This document shows, in pieces, positions 25,257 through 53,400 of a stretch of DNA of 64,000 nt. A program made the translations under genes and the position numbers. The stretch is from Apostichopus japonicus (taxonomy: Eukaryota > Echinodermata > Holothuroidea > Aspidochirotida > Stichopodidae). The stretch is taken from contig NC_092562.1 of the NCBI RefSeq assembly GCF_037975245.1, positions 29,525,554 through 29,589,553 on the forward strand. Direction: 5' to 3'. The notes under the pieces were generated by a model. It had not been told where the DNA came from. It worked only from the letters and a program-made list of their open reading frames with translations, and ran no database searches. How positions within the stretch are numbered: the first letter of the stretch is position 1; every line of letters starts with the position of its first letter.

Positions 25257-28200
25257 ATGAGTGTGGGACCTCTAGTGGTAGAGATACTCTGTATCTTTGC
25301 CCTCTCAGCTTATCTGCTTCACAAGTATGGAGACTGGAGGAAACAGCATCCCTTAGTGACAATTATAGTCTTCATCTCGTGGTATTTCTCCTTCATCATC
25401 ATCTTTGTTCTTCCACTCGATGTCACCACAGTAAGTATGAAGTATTAAGTGGTACTTCTGTTAGTTTAAGTAGAGATGTATGGCTGATTGAATGTCACCA
25501 CAGTAAGTATGTCTGAAGGAGTATTCCACACTGTTAGTTTAACTAGAGATGACTGAGTGAATGTCACCACAGTAAGTATGCCTGAAGTGGTACTCCACAC
25601 TGTTAGTTTAACTAGAGATTGAATGTCACCACAGTAACATGCCTGAAGGAGTATTCCACACTGTGAGCTGAAAGCCCATGATCTTGTCCCTAACTAGTGA
25701 TGTATGACTGAATGATTATCACACAGTAAGTATGCCTGAAGGAGTGTTCCACACAGTTAGCTAAAAGCACAGTATCTTGTCCCTAACTAGTGATGTATGG
25801 CTGAGTGAATATTCACCTAGTTTAACTGGTTAAACCATCCATTACTCTAAGAAATGGATCACAGTAGGTGGTCTGTGATGTCATCAGAGAAGATGTTCTT
25901 CAAAAGCTTGGAAGTTCTTTTTATAATCTTCTTAAGTTCATGTGTTCTTGAAATGTGATACATTTGGACTGTTTATGTGAATCTGTCAAATGTTCTCTGC
26001 ATATAGAATTTCATCAAAATGCAACTTTTTTTTATAGAAATATTTGTATTTTCCTCCTTGGATATATGATTTAAATAATCTCAAGAAAAACATACAGTAC
26101 ATTTTCAGCTCTATTGCCATGATGTAATCATTCACCATGCTCAATGCCAGATGCATTCACAAAATATTACCAAATTTGAAAATTCATATCTTTGCCATGA
26201 AAAATTATGCGAGTTTGCAGAAAATTTCCGACACTATCGTTATTAGTTCAGTCAATGGCAGCCACAGGACCACCCCTTTACGAGCTCTGAAAAGCCCAGC
26301 CGATAAATTGAGAGCACAACCCAGCAACCCCCTCCATACCCCCCTCCCTCTCTCTCTCACTTAAATTATGACCTCTGATATGCATTGACAATGTCATGGA
26401 GACTGCTAAGCTTCCTTACTCACCAACCTCTAAGAGGTTGTAGTTTTTCCCAATCACTTATTAAAGTAGACCTGTAAGATGGCATTATGGGATGTCAAGA
26501 ACCCTTTGGAATCATCTTACTTGATGAATAACTTTACCAAATCAAAGGAACTGTACTAGTTACACTTATTTACTATGTTTGAGAACATTTTGTTAAAAAT
26601 ACAACTTGTTCCCCAGTTTATCCTAAAATCAGTGCAAAACCAGCAGTTTAAATAAAACATTGATCTGCCAATTGTTAGGCCTTTAGAACTTGTCATATTG
26701 CGAATCTAAAGTGTTTGCTTTGAACATAGCATGAGCACATGATTTTAATGTTGGGACATTGTACATTGAATTGTAATGTACAGTCCATAAACATATCAAT
26801 GTCACTGTTCACAAGTACAGTACCTATATCTCGGTCCCTATCAGTAATGTATATATTTCATTATTCCTCTTTTTGTTTTGTCACATTAAATCCTGTCATG
26901 CTTTAATTTATATCATAAATGTAATTTATGTATCAGAATCTCTGTTCTTAATTTATCCCCACATCGACTGTTTTTTTCACAATTTCTCCCAATTTGATTG
27001 CTTTTAGACATTTTACAAGCAGTGTGTGCATGATTCTGTGAAGCCAAGTACAGCGGCCCCTTCTAAATTAAACGAAATAGATACCACCCTTTGGGTTGAT
27101 CCCAAAGTAATAACAACAGAAGACGTCGTAGACTCAAATCGGATCCGAAGGGAATCCCCTCCGGTCAACGAATGTCATGAACCCTGGAGTTACGTACCTG
27201 AAAATATTCTACCTATCATCTGGTCCATAGTGTACTGGACATCTTATCTACTCACATGGTAAGCACTATCACATGATATGATCAAAACTAAGATTATAGT
27301 GTACTGGACATCTTATCTACTCACATGGTAAGCAGTATCACATGATATGATCTAAACTTAGATTTAGTGTACTGGACATCTTATCTACAAGCACTATCAC
27401 ATGATATGATCAAAATTAAGATTATAGTGTACTGGACATCTTATCTACTCACATACAAGCACTATCACATGATATGATCAAAACTAAGATTATAGTGTAC
27501 TGGATTATAGAGTAGATTATAGAGTGGATTATAGAGTACTGGAGTATAGTGTACTAAGATTATAGTGTACTATCTACAAGCACTATCACATCATATGATC
27601 AAAACTAAAATAATAGTGTACTGGACATATAATCTACTCACATGCTAAGCACTATCACATGATATGATCAAAACAGACTATAGTGTACTGGACATCTTAT
27701 CTACTCACATACAAGCACTATCACATGATATGATCAAAACTAAGATTATAGTGTACTGGACATCTTATCTACTCACATGGTAAGCACTATCACATGATAT
27801 GATCAAAACTAAGATTATAGTGTACTGGACATCTTATCTACTCACATGGTAAGCACTATCACATGATATGATCAAAACTAAGATTATAGTGTACTGGACA
27901 TCTTATCTACTCACATGGTAAGCACTATCACATGATATGATCAAAACTAAGATTATAGTGTACTGGACATCTTATCTACTCACATGGTAAGCACTATCAC
28001 ATGATATGATCAAAACTAAGATTATAGTGTACTGGACATCTTATCTACTCACATGGTAAGCACTATCACATGATATGATCAAAACTAAGATTATAGTGTA
28101 CTGGACATCTTATCTACTCACATGGTAAGCACCATCACATGATATGATCAAAACTAAGATTATAGTGTACTGGACATCTTATCTACTCACATGGTAAGCA

Positions 28201-29377
28201 CTATCACATGATATGATCAAAACTAAGATTATAGTGTACTGGACATCTTATCTACTCACATGGTAAGCACTATCACATGATATGATCAAAACTAAGATTA
28301 TAGTGTACTGGACATCTTATCTACTCACATGGTAAGCACTATCACATGATATGATCAAAACTAAGATTATAGTGTACTGGACATCTTATCTACTCACATG
28401 GTAAGCACTATCACATGATATGATCAAAACTAAGATTATAGTGTACTGGACATCTTATCTACTCACATACAAGCACTATCACATGATATGATCAAAACTA
28501 AGATTATAGTGTACTGGAAATCTTATCTACTCACATGGTAAGCAGTAACACATGATATGATCAAAACTAAGATTATGGATGGAAACCCTGGAATAAAAGG
28601 TTTCTGTTGACTTTGCAATCTGTAGCAAGTTTGACAGCTTTGAGATAAATTGATATGTTAAATCACCGGGTTGTGTTGGTCACTTCACCAAGCCTACTGA
28701 GTTTTACGGAAAATAAGTTTGCAATCAGTCTGACTGTGACACCATAATTTATTTTCACCCAATGAATCTAATATTTAGTTAATAACAGAACACTGACTGG
28801 GAAATTGATTTTCTCCTCTCTTATCTGTCTCCAAACATCATCTGTACTTTCCCATCTACCTAAACTACATGACCAGAAATCTTTCAGCACTGCGCCCTCT
28901 ATTTCTACTTCTGGGCACCGCCAACTTTTCTCCTCCTTTCCAAGCTACCAATCAGAAGTGTAAGCTACGTGACTTGCGGGATTTTCATACAAGAGCAAAG
29001 CAAGCAAAAAGGAAGAGAAAAGAAATTTGTTGGTCTTTCTAAATTACCAAGTTTAATTAGCGCTTAATTAACGACTCCAATATTTTTCCAAGTAAGGCTT
29101 TGTCCAGACAATCTTATAATACAAATATTTTCACAGTACTATGCAAGACAAGAAACAGACCTGAACAAAAGAAACTTTTGTGAAAGTCTTGAAGGAAAAT
29201 GAAACTGGAAAAAATGTATTCATCAGATACACTGAAATAAGGAAATATTTGTGGTGATGACAATATAGACATAGGTGTACGAGGTGGGGGGGCAGGGGGG
29301 GCAGACTGCCCCCCAAATTTCCAGAGGACAAGAAATTCGGGCAAAAGTCCTGAAAAATTCGGGCAGCCTAAGAGGGA

Positions 29378-29417
<40 letters not shown>

Positions 29418-32400
29418 TGCAGTAGCTTGCCCGAATCTTTTTCAAATTTTTGCCCGACAATTCTGTGGAGAGCGTTTTATGTTATTTGTTTTGTGACATT
29501 AATATTAATATAGGCCTAATGACTTTCTTTATTTAGCATCATGTTGCCAGAATATATCCGTGTAACACCACCGTAAGCGCAGCTCATCTGGGCTACCACT
29601 TTTTAACTAGTCAACTGTATACCTGGACATCCCCGACATGAGTGTATATAAGAAACGTTTTCTTGTTCATGGATGGTGGGGGGGGGGAGTGCCTACAAGC
29701 CTAGAAGTACAGGTTTATCATATTCTTTGTTATTTTTTATACTTTTTTTGTGAGCCAAATCTCACCCGACACAGCCACATTATCCCGCCTACGTGTCGTT
29801 GAACAACGTATGTTTTTCTGGAGGTAGCTGAGTACTGTGTTAAAATAATAAATACGGTACCGGTAACTAAATAGGAGCTTAAAAAATATACTGTCCTATT
29901 TTTCCCCTTCAAAGTGATGTTACCATTTTTTCTTCTTCTAATTTACCAAATTTTTGGGGAAGTGTAAATTTCTAAAACGTGAGATTATAAAAAAAAGAAT
30001 GTTTAGATGCAACTTGCAAGGCCTCAGAAGTGCCATTTCCGGCAGTCTGAGAGTCATTTTTTGCCAAAAAATTTCTTGTACGCTACGCGCCAACCGATGG
30101 TGGCGCTCCGCTTAGATAGTGTCACGGGAACTTTCGGGCACAAAAGTTTCTGCCCCCCCAAACTGAAATGATCCCGTACGCCTATGAATATAGATACCTG
30201 TACTAGAAGTATCTATAATGTTAGCATGTCACCACTAGTCATGAAAAATTAAAGGATTGCAGGGCAGGTTAATCCAAGCTTCAGTCATTCAAAGATCATG
30301 TATCATTTAATAGCTTGGTAGATGAAATATAAATACAAAATATTAAGATATTTCAAAATTCAATAGCACACAGCTGACGGCTACAAGAAATATTTTATAT
30401 TACAGTTTTTCATTTATTTGACTTTTCTACATTTCTAAATACAATAAAGATTCATATTGTAAGTGTCAAGTAGGCCCACAAATTGTTGTGAAAGGAGATA
30501 TTTTGAACTGTCCACAAGACATATAAACGCCATGAAAAATATAACACATTAATGCACTTTAAGCATGCAAAAATAAAGCACAATTACTAGCAATCTTGCT
30601 CCCCTGTCCAAATTATCAAAACATTCACCAGGGAATCTTCATTGCCCTGTTTATCTGAACCTTCACCAGTGCCATCTATCAGAATCATGGCCACCATTTT
30701 GAAAGTTGATATAAGATAATTAACGACCTTCCGAAATCTTTAAAATGTTGTATATTTCTCATAGGCAACTCACTTATGAGAGACTAGTTTTAAGTATTGT
30801 TCATTATCTGTGGCACTCATGTTGCAATTACATATATTTTGTTGTACATGCCAGTTGTCATAATATTAGCAACCCTCTTTAGCTATTAAACATCCAATGC
30901 ATACGAGTAATAATACACACCCAGTTGGGACATGTGTTCATATCCAATACCATGCTCTCAAAGCCATGGTATTGGCAGTACAAACAGTTCCAAACCTTGA
31001 TCGGATAGAAACATGATATTCATACTGCTGGTACTGACAATACGAGTGCTCTGAAGCGGGACACGACACTACAGTTTAGTAAAAAATTGTCCCAACTGGG
31101 TGAATAAATGTAAGGAACTTCATACTATCAGTATAAGTGCTTTGAAGCATTATATGAGAGTACAGTACTCAGAGATTTGTAATAGTATTAGAGAACTGTC
31201 CCCACTGGGCCGTACAAGTCCATAACATATTAATAATGTAGTCTTGATTATCGATTCGATCTGATTCTTGCTTTACAGGATTGTAATGCCAATGATGAAG
31301 TCTTATGTGTCTGCCGGTGCTTTCACCGTCAGAGGAAAATTGAAGGCCGCAGTGGTGGAGAATCTCATTTGGTATGGCAGTTATCTCCTAATATTTGGCG
31401 TATTCCTCATCTACGCGGCGGTCGACCCTAAGATTGAATTAGATATGTAAGTAGTACTGTACCGTTGGAATGTATTCGCTTATACTTTCAGCAATATCTC
31501 TCGATATTAAAAACATATAAAACAAGTGCAGTTTTGCTTGGTTCATGAAGCAATACTGTTACAAGTGTATGTGTGATCTTGAAGTGTTGTTGTTGTTGAG
31601 TGTGTTTCTTATGGGTGTTATTGTGTATTTTGGTATTGGAAAGTTGTTAAATATGTTCTTTTTTAAGGTGTTGTTTGATATTCCTGATTTAGAGGTTAGC
31701 CACATGTTCCTTTTGAAGATATCGATGGACAGAATTTGGGAACATGGTTCTGTAGAGGGTACCGTTAGGTCTATGGGATTTCTGGATTGAAGGTGTCCTT
31801 GGTTATGTACTGCAGTTTGATCCATTGGGAATGTTGCTATATTGTTATGTACGGTTATAAACTTTCAGCATGCAAGGATTTACTTCACTTTGATCACTTA
31901 CCTGTCTCCCCTCAACCTCAGCACTCTCTCTCTACCGTGTCTAGTGATCTGGTAACCTTTCAGCACCATTACCCTCTCTATGACCAGTTACTACCAATCA
32001 ATGACTCTCCTTCTCATTCTACCACCCTCCTTTTCTTTCCACCACCCAAAATGTCTGGAAATATGTCTTTCGTACAGGTGTCCAAAATCTTCAACTTCAG
32101 TGTGATTAACTTGTTTTTTTCCCCCTTTATCTGCAGACAAAACCTTCAGGTGATTGGGATCACTGCCAGTAACACATGGGGTCTGCTCCTGTTGGTATTA
32201 CTGCTGGGGTACGGCTTAGTGGAAGTACCCAGGAAGTACTGGTATCAGTCAAAGAAGGGATACCTCTTAAACTACATCTATTTTCAACTAGCTAAGTTGA
32301 GCACAGAGAAATCAGAGGCTGAGGAACATCTTGAGGATGTTCTGGAGGTAAAGCTCCCCCCCCCCCCCGAAACTCAGGATATGGTTACTTGAATGGAACT

Positions 32401-35400
32401 TAGTTTGGTTGGCTAAAACCCTTCAATTTTTCCCTGGAGTGGATCAAAGTGGTCTGTGAGATATCATGATGTCAAATGTTCTTCAAAAGCTTTATGTTCA
32501 TTTTAATAACTGGTCATCATTTTCAATGTTGCCTTAGCTGTCCATGTTCTCTGTAAATTCATCAAAATGCAACAACTTTGTAGAAATATAATTTTATTTC
32601 TGTGAATTATTCAAGTGAGTATTATCAAAATTAAAAATTATAAAAATTTCAGCTGAATTGCCGTAATGACATCAATCACTCTACTGTTGCCAGATGCCTT
32701 CACAATAATCAGTAGTTATTTTTTTTATTTTTTTTAATAATACAACCAAGTTTGAAAAAAACATGTGTTCTCCGTACAAAATGCTATGAGGATATGACTT
32801 TGAACAAGAGATGTAGAAAGTTTCCGAACACATTTGTAATTAGTAAATAAATATATATTTGTTTAATTTCAAAGTAGGATTTAAAAGATGTTGATAATTG
32901 ATTATCTTTATTTATATTCTTTATTTATTTGTTTGTTTTTTGTTTCCTATTGCAGGATGTCAGGAGGGTGTCAGATGTCATTAAATACAACCATGCCAGC
33001 AGAAAGAATGTTAATACCATCATCTCTAAATGTCCAGACACATTCCAAGATTCATTAGTTAAACACTTAGATGATTTTCAAGATTACGGCCAGAGGAAAG
33101 AACAGGTAGGAAGTATATTCTCAGAGCATTTTACGTTTGCTTTTTTATATCCAGTCATACCTCTCATGTTGTTACCTGCACCAAGGGAAAGCAGATTGAA
33201 AGCACAGAGGTTTCTTCCTAGAGAGGGACACCTCTGATATACAGGGAGATCCTTCTTGATAGTTACCGATAATTTAGTTTAGTTTTGTGACGTAAAGTGA
33301 TTGGTAGGTTCTCACTCTGGGAAAGGTTTTCAGTGCACTGCCAAAAGTAGAACAATGTCAATGGGTTTGAATATTTCTCGTTAAATGATGAGTTTAGACA
33401 GAAATTTATTGCTGATAATATCAAGTCAAATTGATAGTTGTATGTAACACAAAATATCGAGTGCAGGCCATGTTTCTAATTAAGTTTTCAATAGATTCAC
33501 CTCTATTACATCTTGAATCCCCCCTCTCCCCATCACCCTTTAGGAAAAACTTTATGATGACATCATCACCTCAACCCATGAGTAATTGTTAATGTTAATC
33601 TATGCCTTTATTCCATATTGTCAGTGGTGGTATTCTGGTATGAAATCCAACATGATTTGTCCTTGAGGACCTTGTTAATGACTTCTGTCTATTCAAGACT
33701 TCTACAAAATATGGAGCTGTTCCATGTAAATTTGAGTGTTGCTTCTATGACTGATAATCAAAGATGTAACCTAGCCAGTTTGATTGATGAGTCTGATGTT
33801 AACATAACGACTGACTTCTCAGATATGAGAATATTGGTATTAAGTTCTATCCTGCACTGCTAACATATTTTTCAATATCCTGTACCTTTGCAAAGAATTC
33901 TTTGATTTTGTCTAATGTTTTCATGAAAAACTGTCTCAAAAAGTGAGGCATCATAAGTAAAAGGCTGTGTGCATTGGTATTGTTGAAGCCTTACAAACAA
34001 ACAATACCCCATCCGCCTGTTTTGTAGTAACACTACCTCTTGCATCCACATTGGCAAAAAAAGATAATAATAAAGTCTTCCCTTTCATATTTCTAACAAC
34101 ATTTTGCACTTTGTCTAAACAGCATTGAGATGCTCTGTGTTTACATTTAACGTGTTGTTTGTTTGTTGTTGTTGGGGTTGTTTTTTTTAAATGGGTGTGT
34201 TTGTTTTTAATTATGTTTCATATTCTTGAAGTATTTCCAAAACAAACTTTCTCTGGAAAAAACTTGTAACTTTCTACAAATTGAAATCATAGGTCAAACT
34301 TACTCAAATTTCTCAGACTCTCAATTGATTTAATGAATTTAAAGGTAAAAATTTTTGGGAAAAATAGTTTTAGTCATCAGAGAAAACCTTAATGAAAAGC
34401 ATTTTTCCCCTCCTTTTTTCTCGTAAAAGCTAATATTATCAACTATGTTATCAACCTCTGTCCCTTAGCAACAGCTCAATATCTAACTTAATTAAGCCTT
34501 CCAATATATTTGCCATCTCCCAGAAAGAAATTTGAGGCTTCTTAATGACTCTTAATAATGTTTCACTTTACTTGTACTCATTTGCTTTTCTTTATTAAAA
34601 GACTGAACCAGTTATGGTAAGTAGCAATTGAACGCAACCTAACATGCTTATTTTTTTTGCAACCCACAGTTTTGCTTTGTGTAGCTTATAGAAGCCATTA
34701 CCCCCCCCCCCCCTTCCTTTAATGGTGTAACCAGGAAATTGATGATGGGGCTCTTCATAATTAAATAAGGAAGTTTATCCCATCAGTGAAGACCATAACA
34801 TGAACCAACGGTTATATATTACTAACTAAAGAAATCAGTTTACCTCTCAGAGCTGAGTTTGCAGAGCTGGAAAATTTGTTGTCACCAACAACACTTTGCC
34901 TGTTTTGTTATGAAACAATTTGTTACATATTAAAAAACTGAAATACAATGAAACACCAATCTTGGGTATAGACATATTTTCTTTGCCAATTTTACAATTC
35001 TGCCATTTTGTGTACAGTTTGGGCACAAAGTTGAATTAAAATAGCCCCAGTTATCACCAACTGCAATAATTAGCTATTCAAAAGGGAGCTAAACATTATT
35101 ACCGGGCTGGGGGGGGGGGGGATGGGAAGGAAATGGGAGGCTGGCTGTCTTATTGGTTGTACAGGGTGCCTAACCTGGTGGTGTTTTTGTCTCTACACAG
35201 CAATGTCATTTGATGTTCTTGTTGCACCATTGGTTTTTTGTTTTATTATTTATTTATTTATTAACTTACTTATTTATCCTCCTCCCCTAATTTAGCTTTC
35301 ACCTTATAACTCGCACATAACCACAATAACTTTGGCAAAAATAACAAACTAATGAAATACTGCTTATTCAGTACATCTTTGTGTTGTTTCTATTTTAATG

Positions 35401-38400
35401 ACCATTCAGAGTACCACTCTGTGAAGCCTTGTAAAGAATCAAACTTTACAAGTCAAACTGAAAGTGTCCTTCTGAAAAATAGTGACATTAACTCCACCAT
35501 CTGCCCTGAATGTAGAGCCCTATCTAAAGAGAGAGGCAGTGATGTTTCACCGTTTAGTATCGTAGGCTAACTGTAATTGTACACATTGTGCTGTTTGTAT
35601 ATGAATACTGCAACTTGGGTTACTTACATTTGGCTACAACCTGTTGGTACAGTAGCATGTATACACAACTAGTTGAAGAAAAGGCCAGATATTTGCAAAT
35701 GTAGTTTCTACCTTACTTCAGTCCACCAAATTCATCCCAGGAATGAGGAAAATTTGATGTCATGCTTGCATATGAAATGATATCAATATAATAATTTGTC
35801 GGATGCAATTATTTTTCTGTATAATGAGTAAAAATGTTAATAACTCACTAAGTATGATCTCTCTCTTAGTAGGATTGAGAGGATATTATTAGTGTATATG
35901 ACATGGTTTGGTCAGAGGATCACAGAGATACAACCCAACGCATAATACAGCAAAGAAAACATGATTATTAGATGACAAGTTTCTCAGTATGTATTTCTGT
36001 CTCTAGTTATTCTTGTGCAAAAGGGTTTCCCGCTCTATATGCAAATATATGTTCAATGGGGATGAATATTTAACAGTCAATACTCCAGCGATTTCACTTT
36101 TCTCTGATCTACTCCTGGGCGGAGGGTTTCATGGCCTTTCCACTTGTATATGTGTTTTATTAGCTGAATATTTATTTTATCGTTACCCCGCTAATCCGCT
36201 ATGCTTTCTCGGTTTGTCAATCGTCTTTTTATCGTTCAAGTGTACTTTATTGTATGATTGATGTGACTTCACTTAACACAGTATTGTATTTGTTGTGGTC
36301 TTATGGTCCAAATAAGTTTTGTTGAGATAGGATGTTTTCACCATTCTGACGCTAAATGATACCACTATATAGCACAATTGTCGACCAAGCACTACATTGT
36401 ACACAGTGACTGGACTAACAATGAGGAAAGCATGAAGGGAATAAATTATCTGGTACCGCATCGCAAAATGCTATGCAAAGTGGTCAAATTGCTATACGAG
36501 TCCAAAGATGTATAGCAGTTTGTGTACATAGGAACCATTGTATTTTATAAGAGACAAAATTTCAGTACCTTCAAAACTGCGACACAGAGTTTGATTTCTA
36601 AACTGTTCCACAATGACATGTGTTGTGGAATGATTGGAACTTTTATACACAGGCTCTAAATGGAATGTTGGTTTCTGTTTAAAAGGGAACAAAACTCAAA
36701 GGTCAAGAGAGATAAATGAAAACCTTCCTCGTTTAAGGTAATATTGTCTTTAATATCAGTTACTGTGTTGACTTTTATCTGTAGTGGAATCTATTTATGC
36801 TTAGGTCCCACATGCTGACTGCGAATGACTTCCAGTGTGTACATGAATACAGTTTATAGGGGACAATATAATCTTAAGTCAGTTCTCTTATATTTGCTTC
36901 ATCGATGATTCTTCCGACTAACTCCATAAACTCTGAATATGTTACATTCACAAAGATTAATGCTCAGATGCTAACTGTTTGCTGCCTGTGCTAAAAATAT
37001 GAATCAAAATTTTTATTGAAGTATGCTTCTTTTTCACAATCTGTACCTTCTTATGTAGGAAATGTCAGTATGTATGGGGGAAAATAAAAATTAACATTTA
37101 ATTTTTGCTAGCAGCTTTGCAGATATTAATTTTCTTTGGCTTAAGCCCTAGCTGCACATTAACAGATAAATGTCTGCTTAACTAAAGAGGAAGTATGTTT
37201 ACTAACAGTAACAAAGTACATCACATGGATTCATTGTGTAGTCAAAGCTAACTTAAACAGTGACTGAATCTTTCAGCAGTACTAAGGAATGAAGCTAATT
37301 GACGTACATGTACAGTATATATACATTGAATGCATCAATGAAGAACATATGCTTTATTCCAATCAAAGAAATCTTACAACCATCAAATGAAATTTATGTA
37401 ATTTAAATTAAATTTATTTGAAATTTCTTATATTTACATGCACAGGGTTTTTGCAGTAGATAAGCACTTTTGTTTATTAACAATTTTTTCCTCCTTTTGA
37501 AGCAATTTAATTGGAGAGCTCTGAGGTTGCTAGCACTGCAAGACCAGAACATCACTACTAAGTTGAATAGTATTAAAAACACATCAAAGATTGAACACTG
37601 CATTTTTTTTCCTTTTTTCCTTTTTCTTATTTGTCCTTTTTTTTGTCTTTCTTTGCTGTGAAATTTAATTTCATATATATATTTTTGAATTTGAAGATTC
37701 AGCTTAATAGAGGAGAAGACCTCAGCAAAGACTCTAGATTTATCGGTGCCTTAATAACTGGCACCATCGCAACAAGTTGTAGAAGATTTGTTGCTTTCAG
37801 ACTATGCAACTATTTATGATGTCACATTTTAATATCTTACTGTTCATATTTACATTGATATTGATTCATCTTTAGACCTTCTCCTCCTCCCTTCAACATG
37901 ATCTTAATTGAGCATAGTTTTGACAGTACCCATGTCATCTTATCCTCTTTAAGTTCAAAAGTGAGAGGTAGTTAGTTTAAACCTTTGCTTCTTTTTTTAA
38001 GAGTTTCCACAATTTGGGTTTTGTAAATTTGCAATTCACATACAGTCAAAGATATGTGTCTTTTATTTCCTTTTCTTATCATGGAAGTTATTGATAAGAT
38101 TTCAACGTCTGTTTGACAAAGGAACACATTGGTGGCAAGAAAACAACTGTTTGAGTTTGGTTGGCAAGTTAGCCAAATCTATGAAGGATTTACTCAAAAT
38201 CAGATGGCAATTGCTCCACCTAATCCACCATAATGAAAGAGTAACAAGCATATTCAGGTCATAACATTATATCTCCCAGATTTCATAATACTGTTAGTAA
38301 TCTTGATTAAGCAGCATGTTCGAATTTTAAAAGAATATTCAATATTTGGTTCTGTCAATTGAAGTGAAATGTGATTAGTGAAGTAGTGAAGTTAATAATC

Positions 38401-41400
38401 TACATCGTTACTGAACTTCAGGATCAACTAACATCAAACAATCTATCAAAAAACAAGGGAGCAAGCTGCTCTAAACATATAAACCAATAGGAATCTTCCT
38501 TTCTCTGTTTGAAGTTAAAGGAACGGGCCAAAATGTAATTTAAGTTTTGACTGATGCAAAAACAGCATTCCAATCAAACTTGCTTTCGATTCTCATTTCT
38601 AATTCCTACCTGACCTTATCTAGATAATCCTGCTCATTTGTTGGTGTGGTGTAAACCTTACCCATCCACATAATTTACAAGTTAAAACAATGCCCAGTCC
38701 AAAGTTAGAAAGATGCACCTATGACATCACACTTGTTTGCTTCAAGCTCACTTCTAGTAATGAATGTGACAACTTAAACCATTGTTCAACATTTGAAAAA
38801 CTACAAAGTAGGTAACAATTCCAGATTTTGATTGCATACCTAAATTTTGTTCCATTTTATCTGTCCAGAAGCCTCATGCTGTTTTTTTTTTTTTAAGTAA
38901 ATAAAAAATCCAAAGGATAGATCGAGTTTGCTGGTTATTCGTTAAACCTTGCGAACAGATTTCCTCAATTACTGTAGGGTTTTCATTACTATGGATGTTA
39001 TCATACACTTTGGTTTCTTCTCCATGGGCACAGATTCCATCGGAAAAAGATTTGGTGAAGCTACACAGTAAGGTAATTTATGCCATGCAGTCGAGGAGAC
39101 GAACTTCCACCCAGTGGGACATTCTGGTTGAAAAGGCGTTTGAATTGGAGGATGTAAAGAGCAATGAATCCAACCATTCCAAGTAAGTAGAACCCTCTAT
39201 ACAGAAATATATATGTAGTTTGCAGTATTGTCTGAAATATGATCAGTTTTACCATTGAAAAAGAAGCTATAAAAGTTTCATTCACGGAGGTGTTTTCACG
39301 GAGGTGTTATTCATGGAAGTGTTTTTCTTTCGAAAGTCCCACAAATCCTTGTCAATCAACTGATGCAGTAGTTTAACAAATTACCTTTTTATCTTACGAT
39401 GAGCAAATTAGAACTGATTGCAATATTTTCGACGAATTAAAGAACAAAAGCTTCAAGACGATTGTTTTGTACCATGATAAATTGCAATGTAATTTCTCAG
39501 TTACTCTTTTGTTGTTGATTTATTTGATTTCTCATCTAGAGAAGAAATAGCTATGAAAGTGGAGCCTTTCTCTCACTTTTGGTCCTTCATGATTTTTTTC
39601 TCTTGCAGGAATTACCACCACACCTATGACCCGAACTATAACGGCTTGAAGAGTTACATCTGTACACCTAACGTGGAGTGGCACTGGAGGATTCTGCTGA
39701 TGCCGACCATTCTCAAGGTGGTGGCCGTGGTGTTAGTCATCGGTTCCGTTATGGTCATCTGGTGTGAGATGACTTTCTTCTGTCTCAGTCCAAACCTGTC
39801 TCTTTTCTCCATATTCGTGGATTCAGCCAATAGTAAAAATAATTATTTAGTGATAGAGGTAAGTTAAAACTAATTCATACATGATTTACTTAAATAGAAA
39901 AAAAAGTTTAACCTACAGAAAATTCTGTGTCCCACAAATATAATAGAAGGTATCATTGTGTTAATTAGCAACTTCTTTGAATCACTTGGGATATTACGGT
40001 GGATTTAAGGTAGGCTAAAGTAAGGGATTATATGTTAGGCACCCTGTCGTTTATCTCGAATGGTAAAATATGATGCCTGCAGATTTTATCAGATACAGTC
40101 CAATCATGTTTACTTTAATTTACATGTTGACGTCTAGAGGGGAATTTCTTTTAGATTATTACCATCTTGATTCCCAAATCTTTGGCAAGAAGGTGATCCA
40201 TGGTAAATACAGGGGAAATGAACTAGTTAATTTCATGAATATTCATAAAGTTAAATTTATGCTAATCTTCCTTTCTTTTATTTTGCAGATCATATGTATT
40301 GTTATCATGGCATTTCTCAGTGTGTGCTCCTACTACACCGTGTTTAAAATTAGAATATTTGATTTTTACCTTCTGGCTCCGCATCACCAAACAGACGAGA
40401 ATAGTTTACTCTTTTGTGGCATGTGAGTCATTTTTACAGATTTTTTATTCACAATATATTTTGCTTAGGCTTTCAGGTCACTTTGTTTGTTAAATTTTTC
40501 ATACAATTATGAGTGAGATTAATTCTTGCATTTGGCTATCTTACTTTATGATGTGATGCTCTTTGCTAATTTTCCAGACAAAATGCAGTGTTAATTTATA
40601 TAAATTGCAAAATGAGAGAAATCTGTCTTGTAGAAGTATTTGGCAAATGCACTCACTACACATTGCTGCCCAAAACATACAATATGTACCCCATGCATCA
40701 TTTTCTAAAAATGTACAAAAATATATTCTCCCCCCCCCTCCCCCCTAATTTTTACTGACATATCTTTTGCTCTAATAAAGGCAATTGAATCTTTTAGGAT
40801 GCAGGGGTATTAATAATGTATGTCACTGTTGAATTCTGTGATTTATGTATTTTTTAGCTAAACAATTTTTAGCAATTGTTATATTTATAGCAATACCAGG
40901 ATACCAGCAAACTGTAGCAAGCTACTGTACAGGGTATTGGTGTTGGTGTTATTAATGAGAAAACAACTCTATAGAACCAATTTGTTTCTTTCTTTATCTC
41001 TGTTTCTTTTGTTCCGCTTCTCCCATTCTTATTTTTATCTTTTCTGTGGCCAGTTTTATTAATGTAGTTTAAAGGTGAACTCTTTGATCCATCTCCCAAC
41101 TTCGAAACTTACTCTGCCACTTAAATATGAAATACTGATTTTTTTTAAAATTATTATTATTTTTTTTTTTTATAGTTTTGTTGAAAAGTAGTTGAAAAGA
41201 AATGGTGTGATCTGTGGTGTTGTTGTTTCAGACACAAGTAAAATCAACTTCCTTTTGCTCTTTCGAAAAACTGGACAATTTTGCACAATTAATCGTTTTT
41301 AGGCAAAGTCAGAATTTGTCAACTCCCAGTATCGGAAGACAACAGAAAAACAACACCAATCAACAGATTGATGTGTCAATGATTAACCATGTCAGGGGTC

Positions 41401-44400
41401 ATTTGAAAATGTCACTTCCTTATTAAGAAAAAGAGTTCCGAAAGTAATAAAATACTGGTCATAAGTAACAATGCCAAACCTACTAATGTTTCTCTTTTGT
41501 GTTTTACACACAGGATGCTCTGCCGTCTCACCCCACCTCTGTGTCTGAATTTTCTTAGTTTAATCCACTTGGACACCAGGACGGATGAGTTAGAGACAGC
41601 TTATACAGGGGTAAGTGGCACTCAGAGATGTGTGGGTGGAGGAAGTGGTCTTTAGGATCGGACTTGAAATGGTACTTAATTAAAATGGTACTTCAGTCAG
41701 AATAGGATGTGAGTGAAGAATATCTCAATTAATCAATTACTTGGGATGAGAACGGGCCGGTTTGCTGAGACTCTGGAAAAAGATCATTTTGTAAAGTGAA
41801 GTAGACTGCTGATTGGTTTAGCTTTTTTTCGACTAACTGCTGATTGGATTAGCTTTACAGAGACTTTCACATGACTTAATCATATTCAGACAACTAGCTT
41901 TAAAGCAGCATTTTGCGTCCTTTTCTATGATTTTTCTCAACCTCACTGACTTCACTATGCCATAACGACATACATAACTAGCTTATCTATTTATATTTTA
42001 CTTCAAATGGTGGCATAAAAGTCGAAAAAATTGCAACTTTGAACTTTGTTGTTCTCCAAGATATTTCCTCGCCCATAATATGAATATTTAAACACTACGA
42101 ACGTCATTGACAGATACGTAATATAACACCACGCTTGATTTGTGTAAAGTCTATATGGCAGTTGTACCAGAGAGTTGCATAACAACTCCCTGGTTGTACC
42201 AACGCAAAGTCTTGAATCTATTTTTAGCAACGGCTCATAACTAAACCTGCATCTCTGATTGGTTGAATTCAAACTAGTGGGTTTGGGAACTGAATGCGAT
42301 TAATTTTGTATGTGGAATACTCGCCAATTAACGTTTTTGGCAGGGAAAAACTTGGCTAATAACTTAATTTGCTGTTTTGTGATTTGATGTATGTAAAAAA
42401 CTCGATGGACATGTCAAAAAAGTAGAAAACGGCGACCAAACGCAAAATGCTCATGAATAAACATACTATTCACTGATTGGTGGAATTCAAACTAGTGGAT
42501 TTGGAGATATGAAAACTTTGTCGAGGACACTTTTACTCGTTATCGACATAAATCGTTAATTACTCGCTAATTAACGCTCTTGGCAGGGTGAAACTTGGAT
42601 GGTATCTCAGTTTGCTGTTTTATGATTGATACATCTAAAAAAATCGATGCACACGTTAAAAAGGTGGAAAAAAGCGACCCAACGCAAAATGCTGCTTTAA
42701 TTCAGTGTGAAAACTATGATTTTGTTTTTGTTGTATTTTTTATTCTGTCACTGTAGATTTATTCCTTGAAGTATACAATCCTATTATGGTTTCTTTCATT
42801 TTATGTCTGTATGTGAGAAAGTACCAATATTTAATATATTAATAGGGGAGCTCCACATTGCATTACACAGTAAACATCTCAGTTTTGTCCTACCTCCTGT
42901 TTTTGAAAGGCCACTAGTTGTGTGTGCTGTGTGGATGCTCACACAATTAAATATAAGTTTCACGTCACAACGGATATAAAGGCTCATGAAAAATTCCTGC
43001 CTTAACACTCGGTTTAAACCCACAACACTTCGTAGCAGATAGTACCTAAATAAGAGTCGTGGCTTAAGTTGCCATGGTTACAACTGGTCACATGCATGTG
43101 TGAGCATAAAGGTCATAGTGGTCATACATAGCCTTGCCATGATAACTACATGCATGTTGGAGAGGTTAAAGGTCATAGTGGTCGTACATAGCCTTGTCAT
43201 TGTAACAACATGCATGTTGAGATGAGAGGGTAAAGGTCATAGTGGTCATACATAGCCTAGCCATGATAACTACATGCATGTTAGAGATGAGAGGGTAAAG
43301 GTCATAGTGGTCATACATAGCCTAGCCATGATAACTACATGCATGTTAGAGATGAGAGGGTAAAGGTCATAGTGGTCATACATAGCCTAGCCATGATGAC
43401 TGGTGTGGAGAAGTGAGTGGAATTTTGATATGAAATACTTTCAGCTTACTTAAAAAATTTGAGCTAAATTTAGTAGAAACAACAGAACTGTAAGTTTAGG
43501 TTAGGAAAGCTGTTTTGCAAGGTAGTATCTTCCACCTTTTAACTTATAAAGCAATCATAAATATTACCTGTAAAGAACTGTGACAAAGTGACATTAAGAA
43601 CAAAGTTTCTAGGTGCCAGTGTGAAAACTTTGAGGAAGTTATCCTTCTTAGCTATCTTGAAGTGATGATCCCCTTGGATGGTTTCTCTTTGTCAGGTGAT
43701 GGGAAGACATCTCGACCTATTGCCCTTCATTCAGTCCGGTTTCAACGTCTATTATCCGATCATCGTAGCCGTCCTCTGCCTGGCCACTTACTTCCATCTA
43801 GGGAGTCGCTGCCTCTCCTGTCTCGGCTTCCAACAGTTTGTGGGAGACGACGATATGACAGAGGACATGATAGAAGAAGGTCACCAACTCATGAAAAGAG
43901 GTAATCCTCAAAATATGTGTGTCTGCTTGGAGGGACGAAACAAGGTGGTAAATAAATGTAGTTTGGTTTATGAATCAAGGTAATAACTGACATGGTAGAA
44001 GAAGGTCACCAACTCATGAAAAGAGGTAAACATCAAAATATGTGTGTCTTCTTGGAGGGAAGAAACAAGGGAGTAAATAAATGTAGTTTGGTTTATGAAT
44101 CAAGGTAATAAGTGACATGATAGAAGAAGGTCAACTCATGAAAAGAGGTAATCATCCAAATATGTGTGTCTGCTTGGAGGGAAGAAACAGGGTGGTAAAT
44201 AAATTTAGTTTGGTTTATGAATCAAGGTAATAAGTGACATGGTAGAAGAAGGTCACCAACTCATGAAAAGAGGTAATCATTAAAATATGTGTGTCTGCTT
44301 GGAGGGAAGAAACAAGGGAGTAAATAAATGTAGTTTGGTTTATGAATCAAAGTAATAACTGACATGGTAGAAGAAGGTCACCAACTCATGAAGAGAGGTA

Positions 44401-47400
44401 ATCCTCAAAATATGTGTGTCTGCTTGGAGGGAAGAAACAAGGGAGTAAATAAATGTAGTTTGGTTTATGAATCAAAGTAATAACTGACATGGTAGAAGAA
44501 GGTCACCAACTCATGAAGAGAGGTAATCCTCAAAATATGTGTGCCTGCTAGGAGGGAAGAAACAAGGGAGTAAATAAATGTAGTTTGGTTTATGAATCAA
44601 AGTAATTAGTGACATGGTAGAAGAAGGTCACCAACTCATGAAAAGAGGTAATCATTAAAATATGTGTGCCTGCTAGGAGGGAAGAAACAAGGGAGTAAAT
44701 AAATTTAGTTTGGTTTATGAATCAAGGTAATAAGTGACATGGTAGAAGAAGGTCACCAACTCATGAAAAGAGGTAATCCTCAAAATATGTGTGTCTGCTT
44801 GGAGGGAAGAAACAAGGGAGTAAGTAAATGTAGTTTGGTTTATGAATCAAAGTAATAACTGACATGGTAGAAGAAGGTCACCAACTCATGAAGAGAGGTA
44901 ATCCTCAAAATATGTGTGCCTGCTAGGAGGGAAGAAACAAGGGAGTAAATAAATGTAGTTTGGTTTATGAATCAAAGTAATTAGTGACATGGTAGAAGAA
45001 GGTCACCAACTCATGAAAAGAGGTAATCATTAAAATATGTGTGTCTGCCTGGAGGGAAGAAACAAGGTGGTAAATAAATGTAGTTTGGTTTATGAATCAA
45101 AGTAATTAGTGACATGATAGAAGAAGGTCACCAACTCATGAAAAGAGGTAATCATCAAAATATGTGTGCCTGCTAGGAGGGAAGAAACAAGGGAGTAAAT
45201 AAATGTAGTTTGGTTTATGAATCAAAGTAATAAGTGACATGGTAGAAGAAGGTCACCAACTCATGAAAAGAGGTAATCCTCAAAATATGTGTGCCTGCTA
45301 GGAGGGAAGAAACAAGGGAGTAAATAAATGTAGTTTGGTTTATGAATCAAGGTAATAAGTGACATGATAGAAGAAGGTCAACTCATGAAAAGAGGTAATC
45401 ATCCAAATATGTGTGTCTGCTTGGAGGGAAGAAACAGGGTGGTAAATAAATTTAGTTTGGTTTATGAATCAAGGTAATAAGTGACATGGTAGAAGAAGGT
45501 CACCAACTCATGAAAAGAGGTAATCCTCAAAATATGTGTGCCTGCTAGGAGAGAAGAAACAAGGGAGTAAATAAATGTAGTTTGGTTTATGAATCAAAGT
45601 AATAAGTGACATGGTAGAAGAAGGTCACCAACTCATGAAAAGAGGTAATCCTCAAAATATGTGTGCCTGCTAGGAGGGAAGAAACAAGGGAGTAAATAAA
45701 TGTAGTTTGGTTTATGAATCAAAGTAATAAGTGACATGGTAGAAGAAGGTCACCAACTCATGAAAAGAGGTAATCCTCAAAATATGTGTGCCTGCTAGGA
45801 GGGAAGAAACAAGGGAGTAAATAAATGTAGTTTGGTTTATGAATCAAGGTAATAAGTGACATGATAGAAGAAGGTCAACTCATGAAAAGAGGTAATCATC
45901 CAAATATGTGTGTCTGCTAGGAGGGAAGAAACAAGGGAGTAAATAAATGTAGTTTGGTTTATGAATCAAGGTAATAAGTGACATGGTAGAAGAAGGTCAC
46001 CAACTCATGAAAAGAGGTAATCCTCAAAATATGTGTGCCTGCTAGGAGGGAAGAAACAAGGGAGTAAATAAATGTAGTTTGGTTTATGAATCAAGGTAAT
46101 AAGTGACATGGTAGAAGAAGGTCACCAACTCATGAAAAGAGGTAATCCTCAAAATATGTGTGCCTGCTAGGAGGGAAGAAACAAGGGAGTAAATAAATGT
46201 AGTTTGGTTTATGAATCAAGGTAATAAGTGACATGATAGAAGAAGGTCAACTCATGAAAAGAGGTAATCATCCAAATATGTGTGTCTGCTTGGAGGGAAG
46301 AAACAGGGTGGTAAATAAATTTAGTTTGGTTTATGAATCAAGGTAATAAGTGACATGGTAGAAGAAGGTCACCAACTCATGAAAAGAGGTAATCATCAAA
46401 ATATGTGTGTCTGCTTGGAGGGAAGAAACAAGGGAGTAAATAAATGTAGTTTGGTTTATGAATCAAAGTTATAAGTTACAGGTATACCGAGAGCAGTAAA
46501 CACATGAATTGATGTAATCAGCTAAAGTATAAGACTTGAAATGAGAAACTATTTGTAGAAAGGAAACAGTAAAAGGCAAACACATAGGTCCAACTCCATC
46601 TGAATAGCTTGTTCCATTTGCTGTGGTTACAGAATTAATTCCTTTTATTTGGATGAATAAATTGCATGATAATCTGTGATATAATACATGGACTATACCC
46701 CCATACCCCCATAGACCATACCCCATACATACATGGACTATACCCCCAAACTGCTTGTGTGTTTCTTTAAAGTTGAAATGAAATGTTCACAACCTTTGAC
46801 AATAAGTCAACTTTTTTGTGACATCTGCAACGGTTTCTCCCCGACAGAAAAGAGAAAACGAGAAAGAGCCCTGAAAAGCGAAAGCAGGAAAAGGTACATT
46901 GAGAAAATAAAACCGAGAGAAAATGGTCAGAGGCTGGAGAATTTAAACTCCCATAGCGACAGAAGCTTTAACCGGGAAGCTGCATCAGGTGAGTAGTTTT
47001 GTCATAGGTATCAATGTCTAAATGGAGCACCAAATGCATGCCGTGTAGGTGGTTAAGCAATGTTTTGTGTTTGGTTACGACTAAGCAGCAATCTGTCCAA
47101 ATGGACAAAGAATCAAGCCACATTTTGACTGCAATCTATTAAAGCTTTGACACGTTCCTACCTCTGTTTCACACCCAAAAGTACAGATTATCAGCAATTA
47201 ACCAACAACTCTCTTTCCATATTTCAACATGTTTCATCAAGAATCTCTTGTTTCATTAAGTGTAGATTACACGAAAGTCTCTGAACACACTAATGTCGCA
47301 GACATGTGATATTTAGTCAATTTTCTTTATTAGTTTTAAATGAATATTGAAACTGGTTGAACTAAGAAAGTGCTTGTTTAATAGGATTACACCATGAACA

Positions 47401-50400
47401 AACATTCAACTGCTGCATTGAGGGTGTGCCGTTGTACAATAACAAGCTTCATCAACGCATCACTCAGTCTCCATATCACACATTATGTACTGCTTTAGTA
47501 AATGTCTGCTGCAAAATATTCAATTGTTTTCAAACTTTCGTGGAAGTTTTGTGCTTGGTGATAGCATTCATTCATCAACTTGTATTGTCAGTATATTATG
47601 TTGTTGTATCAACATTATAGCATGTTAGCATTACGGCAGCAGATGTGCTGAAAAAACCCACCAAAGTTTCTCTCCAACTACAACAGGAATATGATAAAAA
47701 CAAAACTGTGCTCAGACTTAGGAAACTTCAAGCTATTTACTTGGCTAAATGCCAGGGGATTATGTCACATGCCAGTGGAAATAAGTCTCTTGCATTTTGC
47801 TGCCGTTGCAAGAGTAATGTTGCTTTTGTATTGATCAAAAGAAAGTGAAAGTTGGAATTGATTCAAAGCAAATGAAAAGTGGGAATATTAAATTTAGTCA
47901 TTACCTGTTTTTGCTCTATCGGTTCATAGCAAAGGGCTAAAATTGTGAAGTTCTTCTAGGCCTGGTGCTTTTCCACGAAGTGTGGAGGGGTGAGCTAATG
48001 AGCTGCATTAACTTCCGTGCCAAAAATAATCCCAAAATGGCAGCAGCGACCTCTTGACATCCTTCTTTCCCTTTCATCAGTTGAAGTTGTCAAGATTAAG
48101 TTAGCTTCAGCCTGTTGCACACACTACCAATCAACATTCAACTCATAAGTTGTTACGTTAAAATTGTGGGTAGTCTTGCAGTGTGCATATAGATGCTGAA
48201 GATTAGGCCTGATTGAAATGTTGAACATCAGTTTTAAGGAACGTCAGCTTCAGTCGGGCACACTGAACGTGTAGAGGTGTCCGCAGTGTGAGGTGGTTCA
48301 CTACTAAATATGGTACAGATTGAACAAATGTAGGCAATCTTGGGTACTTAATTTACATGCGACCTAAACGAGCTACGGTTGTTAACAGTAAACGGCCATT
48401 GCGTTCGCTATTCAGTCATTCAGTGTGCGTCCGAGGGTCTTCACAACACTCGAAAACTAGGTCATAAGGGTCAAGTAAAGTCAGGTCATGATAAGTCGAT
48501 CAGTGTGCGGCTTGCTTTAAAGCAAGTGCATTATCGTTAGTGAGCAAGATATTTAGGTGAGAGTTTTGCGTTTGTTTACCACTGATATGCTTTCAGAGTA
48601 TAAGCTATCGTAGTTTGCGTAGCAATCACAAAAGTGTGTTTTATGAAACCTGCCAAACTTTCAAACTGCTGACATACTGCAGGCTTGAAACCAATAGGAT
48701 GAAGACTGGAGGTGACCAATTTATATACCCTACTCCTGCTAGTAGTATAGGTACATAGTAGAACAATATAGTTAAGTGGATATAATCTTAGACCCTCTTG
48801 ATGCATTAACATGTCATAGCTCATCATATGAGGAATGTAACTCACTGCTGTTTCACCTCCTATCTTTAAGGTGGTAGCCTCGTCCACCCAGCAGCTATTG
48901 GTTCCACCTATGGTTCTTAACATTTTGTTACCCTGACACTCTTCGCAGGAAAATCTGCCATTGTTATGGGATGTCAGTATATCAAGAATTCATTTATAAG
49001 CCCTAGTCTAAGCTAGGCATAATAACATATCACATGAGCCCACTACCATGCCATGACTGATGTGCCTAGCCCTAGTCTAAGCTAGGCATAATAACACATA
49101 ACACAGGCCACTACCCTGCCATGAATGATGTGCCCAACCCTAGTCTAAGCTAGGTATAATAACACATAACACGAGCCCACTACCCTGGCATAACTGATGT
49201 GCCCAACCCTAGTCTTAAGCTAGGCATAATAACACATAACACAAGCCCACCACCCTGCCATGACTGATGTGCCAAGCCCTAGTCTAAGCTAGGCATAATA
49301 ACATATCACATGAGCCCACTACCATGCCATGACTGATGTGCCTAGCCCTAGTCTAAGCTAGGCATAATAACACATAACACAGGCCACTACCCTGCCATGA
49401 ATGATGTGCCCAACCCTAGTCTAAGCTAGGTATAATAACACATAACACGAGCCCACTACCCTGGCATAACTGATGTGCCCAACCCTAGTCTTAAGCTAGG
49501 CATAATAACACATAACACAAGCCCACCACCCTGCCATGACTGATGTGCCAAGCCCTAGTCTAAGCTAGGCATAATAACATATCACATGAGCCCACTACCA
49601 TGCCATGACTGATGTGCCTAGCCCTAGTCTAAGCTAGGCATAATAACACATAACACAGGCCACTACCCTGCCATGACTGATGTGCCAAGCCCTAGTCTAA
49701 GCTAGGCATAATAACATATCACATGAGCCCACTACCATGCCATGACTGATGTGCCTAGCCCTAGTCTAAGCTAGGCATAATAACACATAACACAGGCCAC
49801 TACCCTGCCATGAATGATGTGCCCAACCCTAGTCTGAGCTAGGCATAATAACACATAACACAAGCCCACCACCCTGCCATGACTGATGTGCCAAGCCCTA
49901 GTCTAAGCTAGGCATAATAACATATCACATGAGCCCACTACCATGCCATGACTGATGTGCCTAGCCCTAGTCTAAGCTAGGCATAATAACACATAACACA
50001 GGCCACTACCCTGCCATGACTGATGTGCCAAGCCCTAGTCTAAGCTAGGCATAATAACATATCACATGAGCCCACTACCATGCCATGACTGATGTGCCTA
50101 GCCCTAGTCTAAGCTAGGCATAATAACACATAACACAGGCCACTACCCTGCCATGAATGATGTGCCCAACCCTAGTCTAAGCTAGGTATAATAACACATA
50201 ACACGAGCCCACTACCCTGGCATAACTGATGTGCCCAACCCTAGTCTTAAGCTAGGCATAATAACACATAACACAAGCCCACCACCCTGCCATGACTGAT
50301 GTGCCAAGCCCTAGTCTAAGCTAGGCATAATAACACATAACATGAGCCCACTACCCTGCCATGACTGATGTGCCTAGCCCTAGTATAACTTAGGCATAAT

Positions 50401-53400
50401 AACACATAGTACTAGCCCACTTCCCTACCATAGCTGATGTGCCCAACCCTAGTCTTAGCTGGGCATAATAACACATAACACAAGCCTGCTACCCTGTCAT
50501 GACTGATGTGCCTAGCCCTAGTTTAAGCCAGGCATAATAACACATAACACAAACCCCATAATTCTGCTAAGACTGATGTGCACTGGCCTAATTCAAGTTA
50601 AGGAAAATAAAACGCCTGGCCAGCTGTGAGTAAGCCATTCAAGGCAAGAACAGGCACTTTCTGGGTTGAATGGAATGTGTTTATTTAGTTAAAGACTTTC
50701 TGTAAATTGCTACCAGTCACTTAAGAATTTGACAATGGTTACAAGGCTTAGTTCCTGGTATGTCAATGCCAGTAAAGAAAAAAGGGGAATATCCTGCTAA
50801 GCAATAAGGAAGTCACTACAATGATTCAAAATATTTTAATTCGCAAGCTGTGAAATGAATTAGCAAAAAACTTTGCTTAGGAATTGGCAAGAATTATTTA
50901 CGTTTAGTTTCTACTTTCCGTGTGCTAGGTCTCTATCAGGTTTAGAGATATTTTCTTTCTTATAGAAAAGAAAATTAATCATATATTTAGATCTGCCATG
51001 TCACCCTATGTGCATGTATAGGTTGCTGTTATTCTACTTGTTAAATTGTTACTCTGATATATGTATTTAGGGAACAACATTTTTGAACTTGTAAAGAAAG
51101 AACAGTTTATTTCAGTTGTTAGCAATCGCATGGTAAATTAAGATGTTTTTTATTATCTCTACAACTCAAGTGTGAATCCTTAAGGATGAGGCCTTGTGGT
51201 AGTAGTAGCATACTACACCACTCAACTGTTTGTTAAGGAATCTTATAGGATAAACTTTGAGGAGTTTGCATGGGGTTTATTCCATGCTTTATATATGAAG
51301 CAGTAGTTACTGTGCAGGACTACAAGGTGAAACTATTGTTTAGAGGTAGCTGGTATGAACAACTCCCCTCCCCTCCCCCCAACCCACCCTCCACAGCACT
51401 GAGACACCAACTCTACCATCATCAATTGGTCTACTGTATGTAATATATAACTGTCAAGAACCCAACCCCCCCCCCCACCCACCCTCCACAGCACTGAGAC
51501 ACCAACTCTATCATCATCATTGGTTGTAGTCATAGTTCAGTATGATACAGTCATACAACCATTACTTACAGTATCGTGGTCATATTTCAGTATGAAATAG
51601 TCATACTACCATTACTTACATTGCAGTATTGTAGTCATAGTTCAGTATGAAACAGTCATACTACCATTGCTTTCATTACAGTATTGTAGTCATAGTTCAG
51701 TATGATACAGTCGTACTGCCATCACTTACATTGCAATATTGTAGTCATAGTTCAGTATCACTTACATTGCAGTATTGTAGTCATAGTTCAGTATGATACA
51801 GTCATACTACCATTGCTTACATTACTGTATTGTAGTCATAGTTCAGTATGATACAGTCGTACTGCCATCACTTACATTGCAATATTGTAGTCATAGTTCA
51901 GTATCACTTACATTGCAGTATTGTAGTCATAGTTCAGTATGAAACAGTCATACTACCATTGCTTACATTACAATATTGTAGTCATAGTTCAGTATGATAC
52001 AGTCGTACTGCCATCACTTGCATTGCAATATTGTAGTCATAGTTCAGTATCACTTACATTACAGTATTGTAGTCATAGTTCAGTATGAAATAGTCATACT
52101 ACCACTACTTATATTGCAGTATTAGTCATAGTTCAGTATGATACAGTCGTATTACCATTACTTACATTTCTGTATTGTTGTCATAGTTCAGTATGATACA
52201 GTCGTACTACCATCACTTACATTGCAGTATTGTAGTCATAGTTCAGTAGGATACAGTCATACAACCATTACTTACAGTATTGTGGTCATATTTCAGTATG
52301 AAATAGTCATACTACCATTACTTATATTGCAGTATTAGTCATAGTTCAGTACGGATACAGTCATACAACCATTACTTACAGTATTGTAGTCATAGTTCAG
52401 TATGATACAGTCGTACTGCCATCACTTACATTGCAATATTGTAGTCATAGTTCAGTATCACTTACATTGCAGTATTGTAGTCATAGTTCAGTATGAAACA
52501 GTCATACTACCATTGCTTACATTACAATATTGTAGTCATAGTTCAGTATGATACAGTCGTACTGCCATCACTTACAGTATTGTGGTCATAGTTCAGTATG
52601 AAACAGTCATACTGCTTACATTACAGTATTGTAGTCATAGTTCAGTATGAAACAGTCATACTACCATTACTTACAGTACTGTAGTCATAGTTGAGTATGA
52701 AACAGTCATACTACCATTACTTACATTACTGTATTGTAGTCATAGTTCAGTATGATACAGTCGTACTGCCATCACTTACATTGCAATATTGTAGTCATAG
52801 TTCAGTATACACTTACATTGCAGTATTGTAGTCATAGTTCAGTATGAAACAGTCATACTACCATTGCTTACATTACAGTATTGTAGTCATAGTTAAGTAT
52901 GAAATAGTCATACTACCACTACTTATATTGCAGTATTAGTCATAGTTCAGTATGATACAGTCATACTACCATCACTTACATTGCAATATTGAAGACAGTG
53001 TTCAATATGAAACAGTCATACTACCATCACTTACATTACTGTATTGTAGTCATAGTTCAGTATGAAACAGTCATACTACCATCACTTACATTACTGTATT
53101 GTAGTCATAGTTCAGTATGAATCAGTCATACTACCATTGCTCCAGTATATGAGTACCTGTTGGTTGAACAAGGTACCTAACATATCTTACCATTGTCGTT
53201 TCATTGCTGCTCTCTAAAACCATGCATCCTCATTCCTATTCTGTCAACACAACATGAAAGCAGACAGAAATACTGTATTAAGTTTAGAGGAGTACTACCA
53301 GTTTGAGCTTCATTATTCTGGAAAAAGGATTTTTCCTTTGGAAATTTAACACTTTGCAAACATATGTTTCAACCATTGTTAGATATCTATTCACTGAATA

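Follow-up and report, generated by a model that had tools for sequence, protein, structure and literature searches.

Three minisatellites cross splice donors in LMBRD2

The LMBRD2 gene of the sea cucumber Apostichopus japonicus contains minisatellites that open introns 1, 2 and 10, and in each of the three the repeated unit crosses the end of the exon and its splice donor. The gene lies in a 64,000-nucleotide stretch of contig NC_092562.1 (positions 29,525,554 to 29,589,553 of the forward strand), referred to here as the window, in which all coordinates are given (Table 1). A preliminary description of this DNA had placed arrays at the starts of these introns and across their donors, and Tandem Repeats Finder (TRF), listings of the copies and alignments confirmed all three.

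For introns 1, 2 and 10, respectively, the unit comprises the last 11, 32 and 37 bases of the exon, the donor, and 61, 37 and 88 bases of the intron, and it is present in 5, 18 and 21 copies. The preliminary counts of exon bases held for introns 1 and 10, while the figure of about 31 for intron 2 was corrected to 32. All three arrays start inside the exon and extend only into the intron. In intron 1, the exon bases of the first copy (25420-25430) are followed by the donor at 25431, and the donor-to-donor spacings are 72, 69, 62 and 92 bp. All five copies here have an exon tail and a donor, the fifth with a degenerate tail; the TRF row begins only at 25458, and the sequence listing supplied the first copy. 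The intron 2 array has exon bases 27227-27258, its donor at 27259 and a unit of 69 bp; in addition to the 18 copies of the exon tail it contains a degenerate interruption at about 27490-27612. The intron 10 array (exon bases 43864-43900, donor 43901) is built from units of 125 bp, or 122 bp in four of the copies, and totals 2.6 kb.

The three units had been described as unrelated, and indeed no cross-array BLAST match was found at E 1e-3; a common ancestry of the arrays was accordingly rejected. The proposal that they were born across donors independently, three times in one gene, was upheld.

Table 1. Position and supporting evidence of the LMBRD2 features in the window
Feature	Position	Strand	Evidence or remark
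LMBRD2 gene, start to stop codon	25257..60055	+	12 exons (base model) plus two microexons
Intron 1 donor-spanning array	25420..25812	+	TRF from 25458; copy listing; donor 20-mer recurring at up to 19/20
Intron 2 donor-spanning array	27227..28574	+	TRF; unit alignment; donor 20-mer recurring at 20/20
Candidate 15-nucleotide microexon, in frame (TEPVM)	34602..34616	+	AG/GT flanks; same five residues in P0002
Minisatellite inside intron 9, 65 bp x 4.6	43107..43401	+	TRF
Intron 10 donor-spanning array	43864..46476	+	TRF 43864-46484; unit alignment; donor listing
Minisatellite inside intron 11, 69 bp x 22.5	48999..50550	+	TRF
Minisatellite inside intron 11, units of about 55 bp	51524..53138	+	TRF
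27-nucleotide microexon, present in NCBI isoform X2	53574..53600	+	Nine extra residues in P0001; AG/GT flanks
Minisatellite inside intron, 3' of the 27-nucleotide microexon, period 64, 12.3 copies	55250..55996	+	TRF
42-bp in-frame tandem duplication, 2.1 copies, last coding exon	59872..59960	+	TRF; protein alignment

Variation among the copies

The arrays differ in how well their donors are kept. All five intron 1 copies retain the GT, as ACA/GTAAGT in four and with GTAACA in the other. In intron 2, 13 of the 18 copies retain it and five have lost it, the dead donors being those of copies 3 to 6 and 17 (window positions 27364-27720 and 28438) and the intact ones those of copies 1, 2, 7-16 and 18. 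The losses consist of an identical GGT-to-AC change in copies 4, 6 and 17, one 9-base deletion and one substitution. The intron 10 copies all read GAG/GTAA (21/21). Silencing of decoy donors was considered for intron 2 and is not claimed, as intron 10 has no dead copies.

Exon identity had been described as partly kept across copies. In intron 10 this stands as a trend, with a mean pairwise difference of 0.019 in the exon part against 0.060 in the intron part, but not by column count, where 3/35 exon columns and 19/88 intron columns carried variable events (Fisher P = 0.12, not significant, with one 3-base deletion scored once). The exon stretch was among six windows tied as least variable of the 125 possible circular windows. 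Such conservation fits a homogenised array in exchange with a constrained exon, and it equally fits weak selection; it does not decide between them.

The 21 intron 10 units fall into 15 distinct sequences, with one variant occurring four times, one three times and one twice, and TRF reported a higher-order period of 372 bp. Both the recurring variants and this period are expected from exchange within the array. They also bear on whether the arrays are an artefact of assembly, in which repeats were collapsed or expanded or haplotypes were joined in tandem. Minisatellites are prone to mis-assembly, and A. japonicus is reported to have a heterozygosity of 1.59% (PMC5638244), but two joined haplotypes would not be expected to yield so many distinct units, variants shared among copies and a higher-order period. 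Moreover, the longest array, at 2.6 kb, is shorter than the mean HiFi read of 14.7 kb given for one published assembly, which is not necessarily that of the window (PMC10344927). We regard an artefact as extremely improbable.

Splicing potential of the repeated donors

The spliced base model of LMBRD2 has 12 exons and an open frame of 723 amino acids. The count of eleven introns given in the preliminary description is right for this model and becomes 13 when two microexons are included. The base-model protein is identical to the A. japonicus LMBRD2-like isoform X2 at NCBI (P0001) except for the 27-nucleotide microexon and a junction residue. P0001, which by the style of its name is a gene prediction, contains the Pfam LMBR1 domain PF04791, and its sequence is consistent with splicing from the first donor of each array.

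Reading on past the true donors of introns 1, 2 and 10, an in-frame stop is reached after 5, 1 and 27 codons, respectively, and each time before the second copy of the donor. Judging from the reading frame, splicing from any later copy would leave a premature stop upstream of the remaining exon junctions, and such transcripts would usually be expected to undergo nonsense-mediated decay. Because an in-frame stop precedes every later copy, the copies cannot be spare donors for the protein.

We scored donors by matches to the nine-position U1 consensus and by a weight matrix. The true donors of introns 1, 2 and 10 each match at 6/9 positions, and so do four of the five intron 1 copies, the 13 intron 2 copies that retain GT and the 17 intron 10 copies examined; the GTAACA copy of intron 1 matches at 4/9. 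(In intron 10, RNA folding and U1 scoring covered 17 of the 21 copies, as the search pattern missed the four 122-bp units.) A preference of the arrays for weak donors is not claimed, since the match count gave P = 0.035 among the 13 donors of the gene but 0.14 among all 21 donors modelled in the window, and the weight matrix gave P = 0.14 and 0.25, respectively. Nor was there a common rule by which RNA structure would mask the decoys, as the predicted accessibility of the first copy was the highest of its array in intron 1, the lowest in intron 2 and tied lowest in intron 10. We infer that the upstream exon body, which only the first copy possesses, defines the donor that is used; exon context is described in the splicing literature as guiding the choice between duplicated donors.

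Could selection nevertheless keep the arrays? The copies might serve as spare donors, as suggested in the preliminary description. They might instead form a local reservoir of sites for the U1 small nuclear ribonucleoprotein that aids splicing or keeps long introns free of premature polyadenylation, or they might be decoys through which some of the transcript is diverted to decay. The invariant donor and less variable exon part in intron 10 are what selection would produce, and the true donors are themselves modest (with the P of 0.035 within the gene, and 0.14 or higher otherwise). However, protein rescue is precluded by the in-frame stops, five of the 18 intron 2 donors are dead, the copies are only modest U1 sites, and folding does not consistently single out the first copy. 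Maintenance by selection is therefore highly unlikely, and the suggestion of spare donors in particular is not borne out.

Enrichment at donors

To the three modelled genes of the window we applied a 20-base probe at every donor and acceptor (21 of each), with 30 shuffles per intron as reference. The genes are LMBRD2 and two upstream neighbours, one with a Tim17/22/23 domain and one with an RNase_T exonuclease domain, which we take to be TIMM23 and REXO2; the neighbour models, drawn by eye and checked by frame and Pfam domain only, comprise coding exons only. Copies of the probe were found only at the donors of LMBRD2 introns 1, 2 and 10, with best matches of 19, 20 and 20 of 20. At the other 18 donors and the 21 acceptors none went beyond the best of 30 shuffles; donor 2 of REXO2 (14/20) and several others at 12 or 13 equalled that maximum.

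That random birth would rarely give this pattern had been asserted in the preliminary description, and a placement model in which founding units are dropped at random agrees. For the 10 TRF arrays of the window with units of at least 26 bp and at least three copies, a set chosen by hand, 0.18 donor-covering units are expected and P for at least three is 0.0007. The seven of these arrays that lie inside LMBRD2 give an expectation of 0.16 and P = 0.0004, and an alternative, hand-merged set of 16 LMBRD2 TRF loci with a period of at least 10 gives 0.21 and P = 0.001. Counting units that cover an exon-intron junction of either kind gives P = 0.006 to 0.011. All these values are post hoc, as the gene was singled out for its pattern; they overstate the surprise and are no formal test. 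The ratio of donors to acceptors, 3:0, has a one-sided probability of 0.125 (one half cubed) and is weak alone.

Does the enrichment point to a special cause? Where exon-intron junctions are transcribed, breakage, fork stalling or R-loop formation could seed tandem duplications at the 5' splice sites, in this lineage and possibly in invertebrate deuterostomes at large. Three of the 10 arrays cross donors where 0.18 are expected, the 21 acceptors have none, and several independent cases of boundary-spanning minisatellites have been reported from amphioxus (PMC3087553, PMC3902484). Against this, the pattern concerns a single gene that was selected post hoc, 18 of the 21 scanned donors have no copies, 7 of the 10 window arrays lie away from donors, and the amphioxus cases include 3' boundaries (PMC3087553). 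R-loops, one of the readings offered in the preliminary description, left no common signature and were rejected as a shared cause: GC skew differs in sign among the arrays, being +0.12 in intron 1, -0.11 in intron 2 and strong only in intron 10 (+0.43). The enrichment keeps a donor-linked process alive but does not demonstrate a special cause, and we think such a process unlikely. The broader proposition is that tandem duplications are born preferentially at transcribed 5' splice sites, repeatedly and throughout the A. japonicus genome, and perhaps in invertebrate deuterostomes generally. They would arise by a process coupled to transcription or splicing, and the resulting donor-spanning arrays would feed intron growth and new splice sites; we consider this rather doubtful.

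Other features of the window

LMBRD2 also contains tandem repeats away from its donors. Because four arrays in the same gene lie in the interior of introns, and a further duplication of 42 bp lies within its last coding exon, the duplication process in LMBRD2 needs no donor. The 42-bp exon duplication may be lineage-specific, judging from P0002, which lacks 14 residues at this site. P0002 is the next-best protein match to LMBRD2 (76% identity) and presumably comes from another holothurian, because named sea urchins, a sea star and crinoids reach only 55-63%.

The unit of the intron 9 array includes a donor-like stretch, AGAGGGTAAAGG, spotted by eye at a place with no known exon. Outside the LMBRD2 coding region, an 88-bp array of 5.5 copies with 98% matches (61155-61636) begins about 1.1 kb past the stop codon, possibly in the 3' untranslated region. 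The Tim17-family gene has an intronic 35-bp array of 2.7 copies (3564-3656), which ends about 20 bases before the acceptor of the exon that starts at 3677 and does not cross it. The candidate 15-nucleotide microexon of LMBRD2 is absent from both the base model and P0001. The GC content of the window, 0.370, is near the published 36.75% (PMC5638244).

Origin of the arrays

How did the arrays arise? The best account, and in our judgement probably the correct one, is chance short tandem duplication followed by tolerance and later homogenisation. An error of replication or break repair would duplicate about 69 to 125 bp in tandem, by chance from within the end of an exon into the intron. The first copy would stay joined to the exon body, and the original donor would still give normal mRNA, so that the event would be nearly neutral. 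A donor-crossing duplication should be tolerated, since exon and donor remain intact in the first copy; one confined to an exon should persist only when it preserves the frame, as the 42-bp duplication does. Unequal exchange or gene conversion would then raise the copy number and homogenise the copies within the intron. That first donors are used in cells we infer from the predicted NCBI protein and, by analogy, from the reported amphioxus cases; the duplication step and its neutrality are likewise postulated.

This account is supported by the anatomy of the arrays, by their mutually unrelated units, by normal coding from the first donors and by unit variants common to distant copies. The repeats that LMBRD2 carries away from its donors also speak for it, as do the amphioxus precedents, with their like structure, length polymorphism and reportedly undisturbed splicing (PMC3087553, PMC3902484). 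By eye, microhomology at the founder junctions does not exceed 2 to 3 bases in introns 2 and 10, and the intron 1 junction is too irregular to read. Donor copies have decayed in two arrays, with five of 18 dead in intron 2 and one of five weakened in intron 1. Four observations weigh against chance duplication with tolerance. Three donor-covering units were found where 0.16 to 0.21 are expected (P = 0.0004 to 0.001, post hoc); the donors and acceptors scanned, 21 of each, yielded three arrays and none (0.125, weak); in the intron 10 unit, variation in the exon part is a third of that in the intron part, although by column count not significantly so; and all 21 intron 10 copies retain the donor, unlike what free decay would leave.

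If mirages, as such minisatellites are called in amphioxus, recur in sea cucumbers, the amphioxus cases would no longer be a peculiarity of cephalochordates but would stand at one end of a broader pattern, open to counting in genomes already available. A count of arrays at donors, at acceptors and in intron interiors would show whether transcription or splicing marks the birthplaces of tandem duplications. With up to 20 extra 5' splice sites behind the real one, LMBRD2 also offers a natural experiment on how the spliceosome chooses among near-identical donors, and donor-spanning arrays are possible raw material for new introns.

Comparison with known systems

Mirages are boundary-spanning minisatellites of amphioxus, named in Adh3 and reported also from the globin genes BflGb6 and BflGb9, PGBD5 and troponin C (PMC3087553, PMC3902484). 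Their units measure 10-72 bp in Adh3, 150-160 bp in the globin gene BflGb6 (PMC3087553), and 60 and 108 bp in PGBD5, which has more than one array (PMC3087553, PMC3902484). They affect both 5' and 3' boundaries, and many copies hold splice signals (PMC3087553). The Adh3, troponin C and globin transcripts are reportedly spliced without disturbance, and the authors assume the same for PGBD5 (PMC3087553, PMC3902484). Length polymorphism is described for BflGb6 and Adh3, and somatic instability for Adh3 (PMC3087553).

The LMBRD2 arrays agree with the structural definition of a mirage, in that the unit crosses an exon-intron boundary and the first copy is the real boundary, and they have minisatellite-sized units with variable copies, some of which retain splice signals. 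They likewise duplicate the boundary in tandem, have similar unit sizes and carry cryptic splice signals in the copies. Unlike the amphioxus cases, they occur in an echinoderm, with three donor arrays in one gene and up to 21 copies over 2.6 kb. In contrast to BflGb6, where the acceptor boundary was copied, no acceptor array was seen in the three modelled genes.

The globin paper proposes that mirages can be a step in the making of new introns (PMC3087553). When introns are gained through tandem genomic duplication of an AGGT-type proto-splice site, sequence bearing splice signals is repeated in tandem, as it is here. In LMBRD2, however, it is an existing intron and donor that are copied, and the spliced protein contains no array-derived sequence. 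No sign of a new intron position made from the duplicated signals was seen, as the array-free spliced product equals the NCBI protein except for the microexon.

Ordinary intronic minisatellites, represented by the interior arrays of the same gene, resemble the donor arrays in unit size and copy number, but the donor arrays differ in that their unit begins within coding sequence and takes in the splice donor. An account of earthworm intronic minisatellites describes no donor-spanning array in the portions consulted (PMC12783039), and among the matches listed in open-licence literature there was none from an echinoderm. What is new here is thus the host group, as far as those listings tell, and the presence of three donor arrays in one gene. 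The LMBRD2 arrays look like mirage-type minisatellites, a known kind in a new animal group, for which no new mechanism is invoked.

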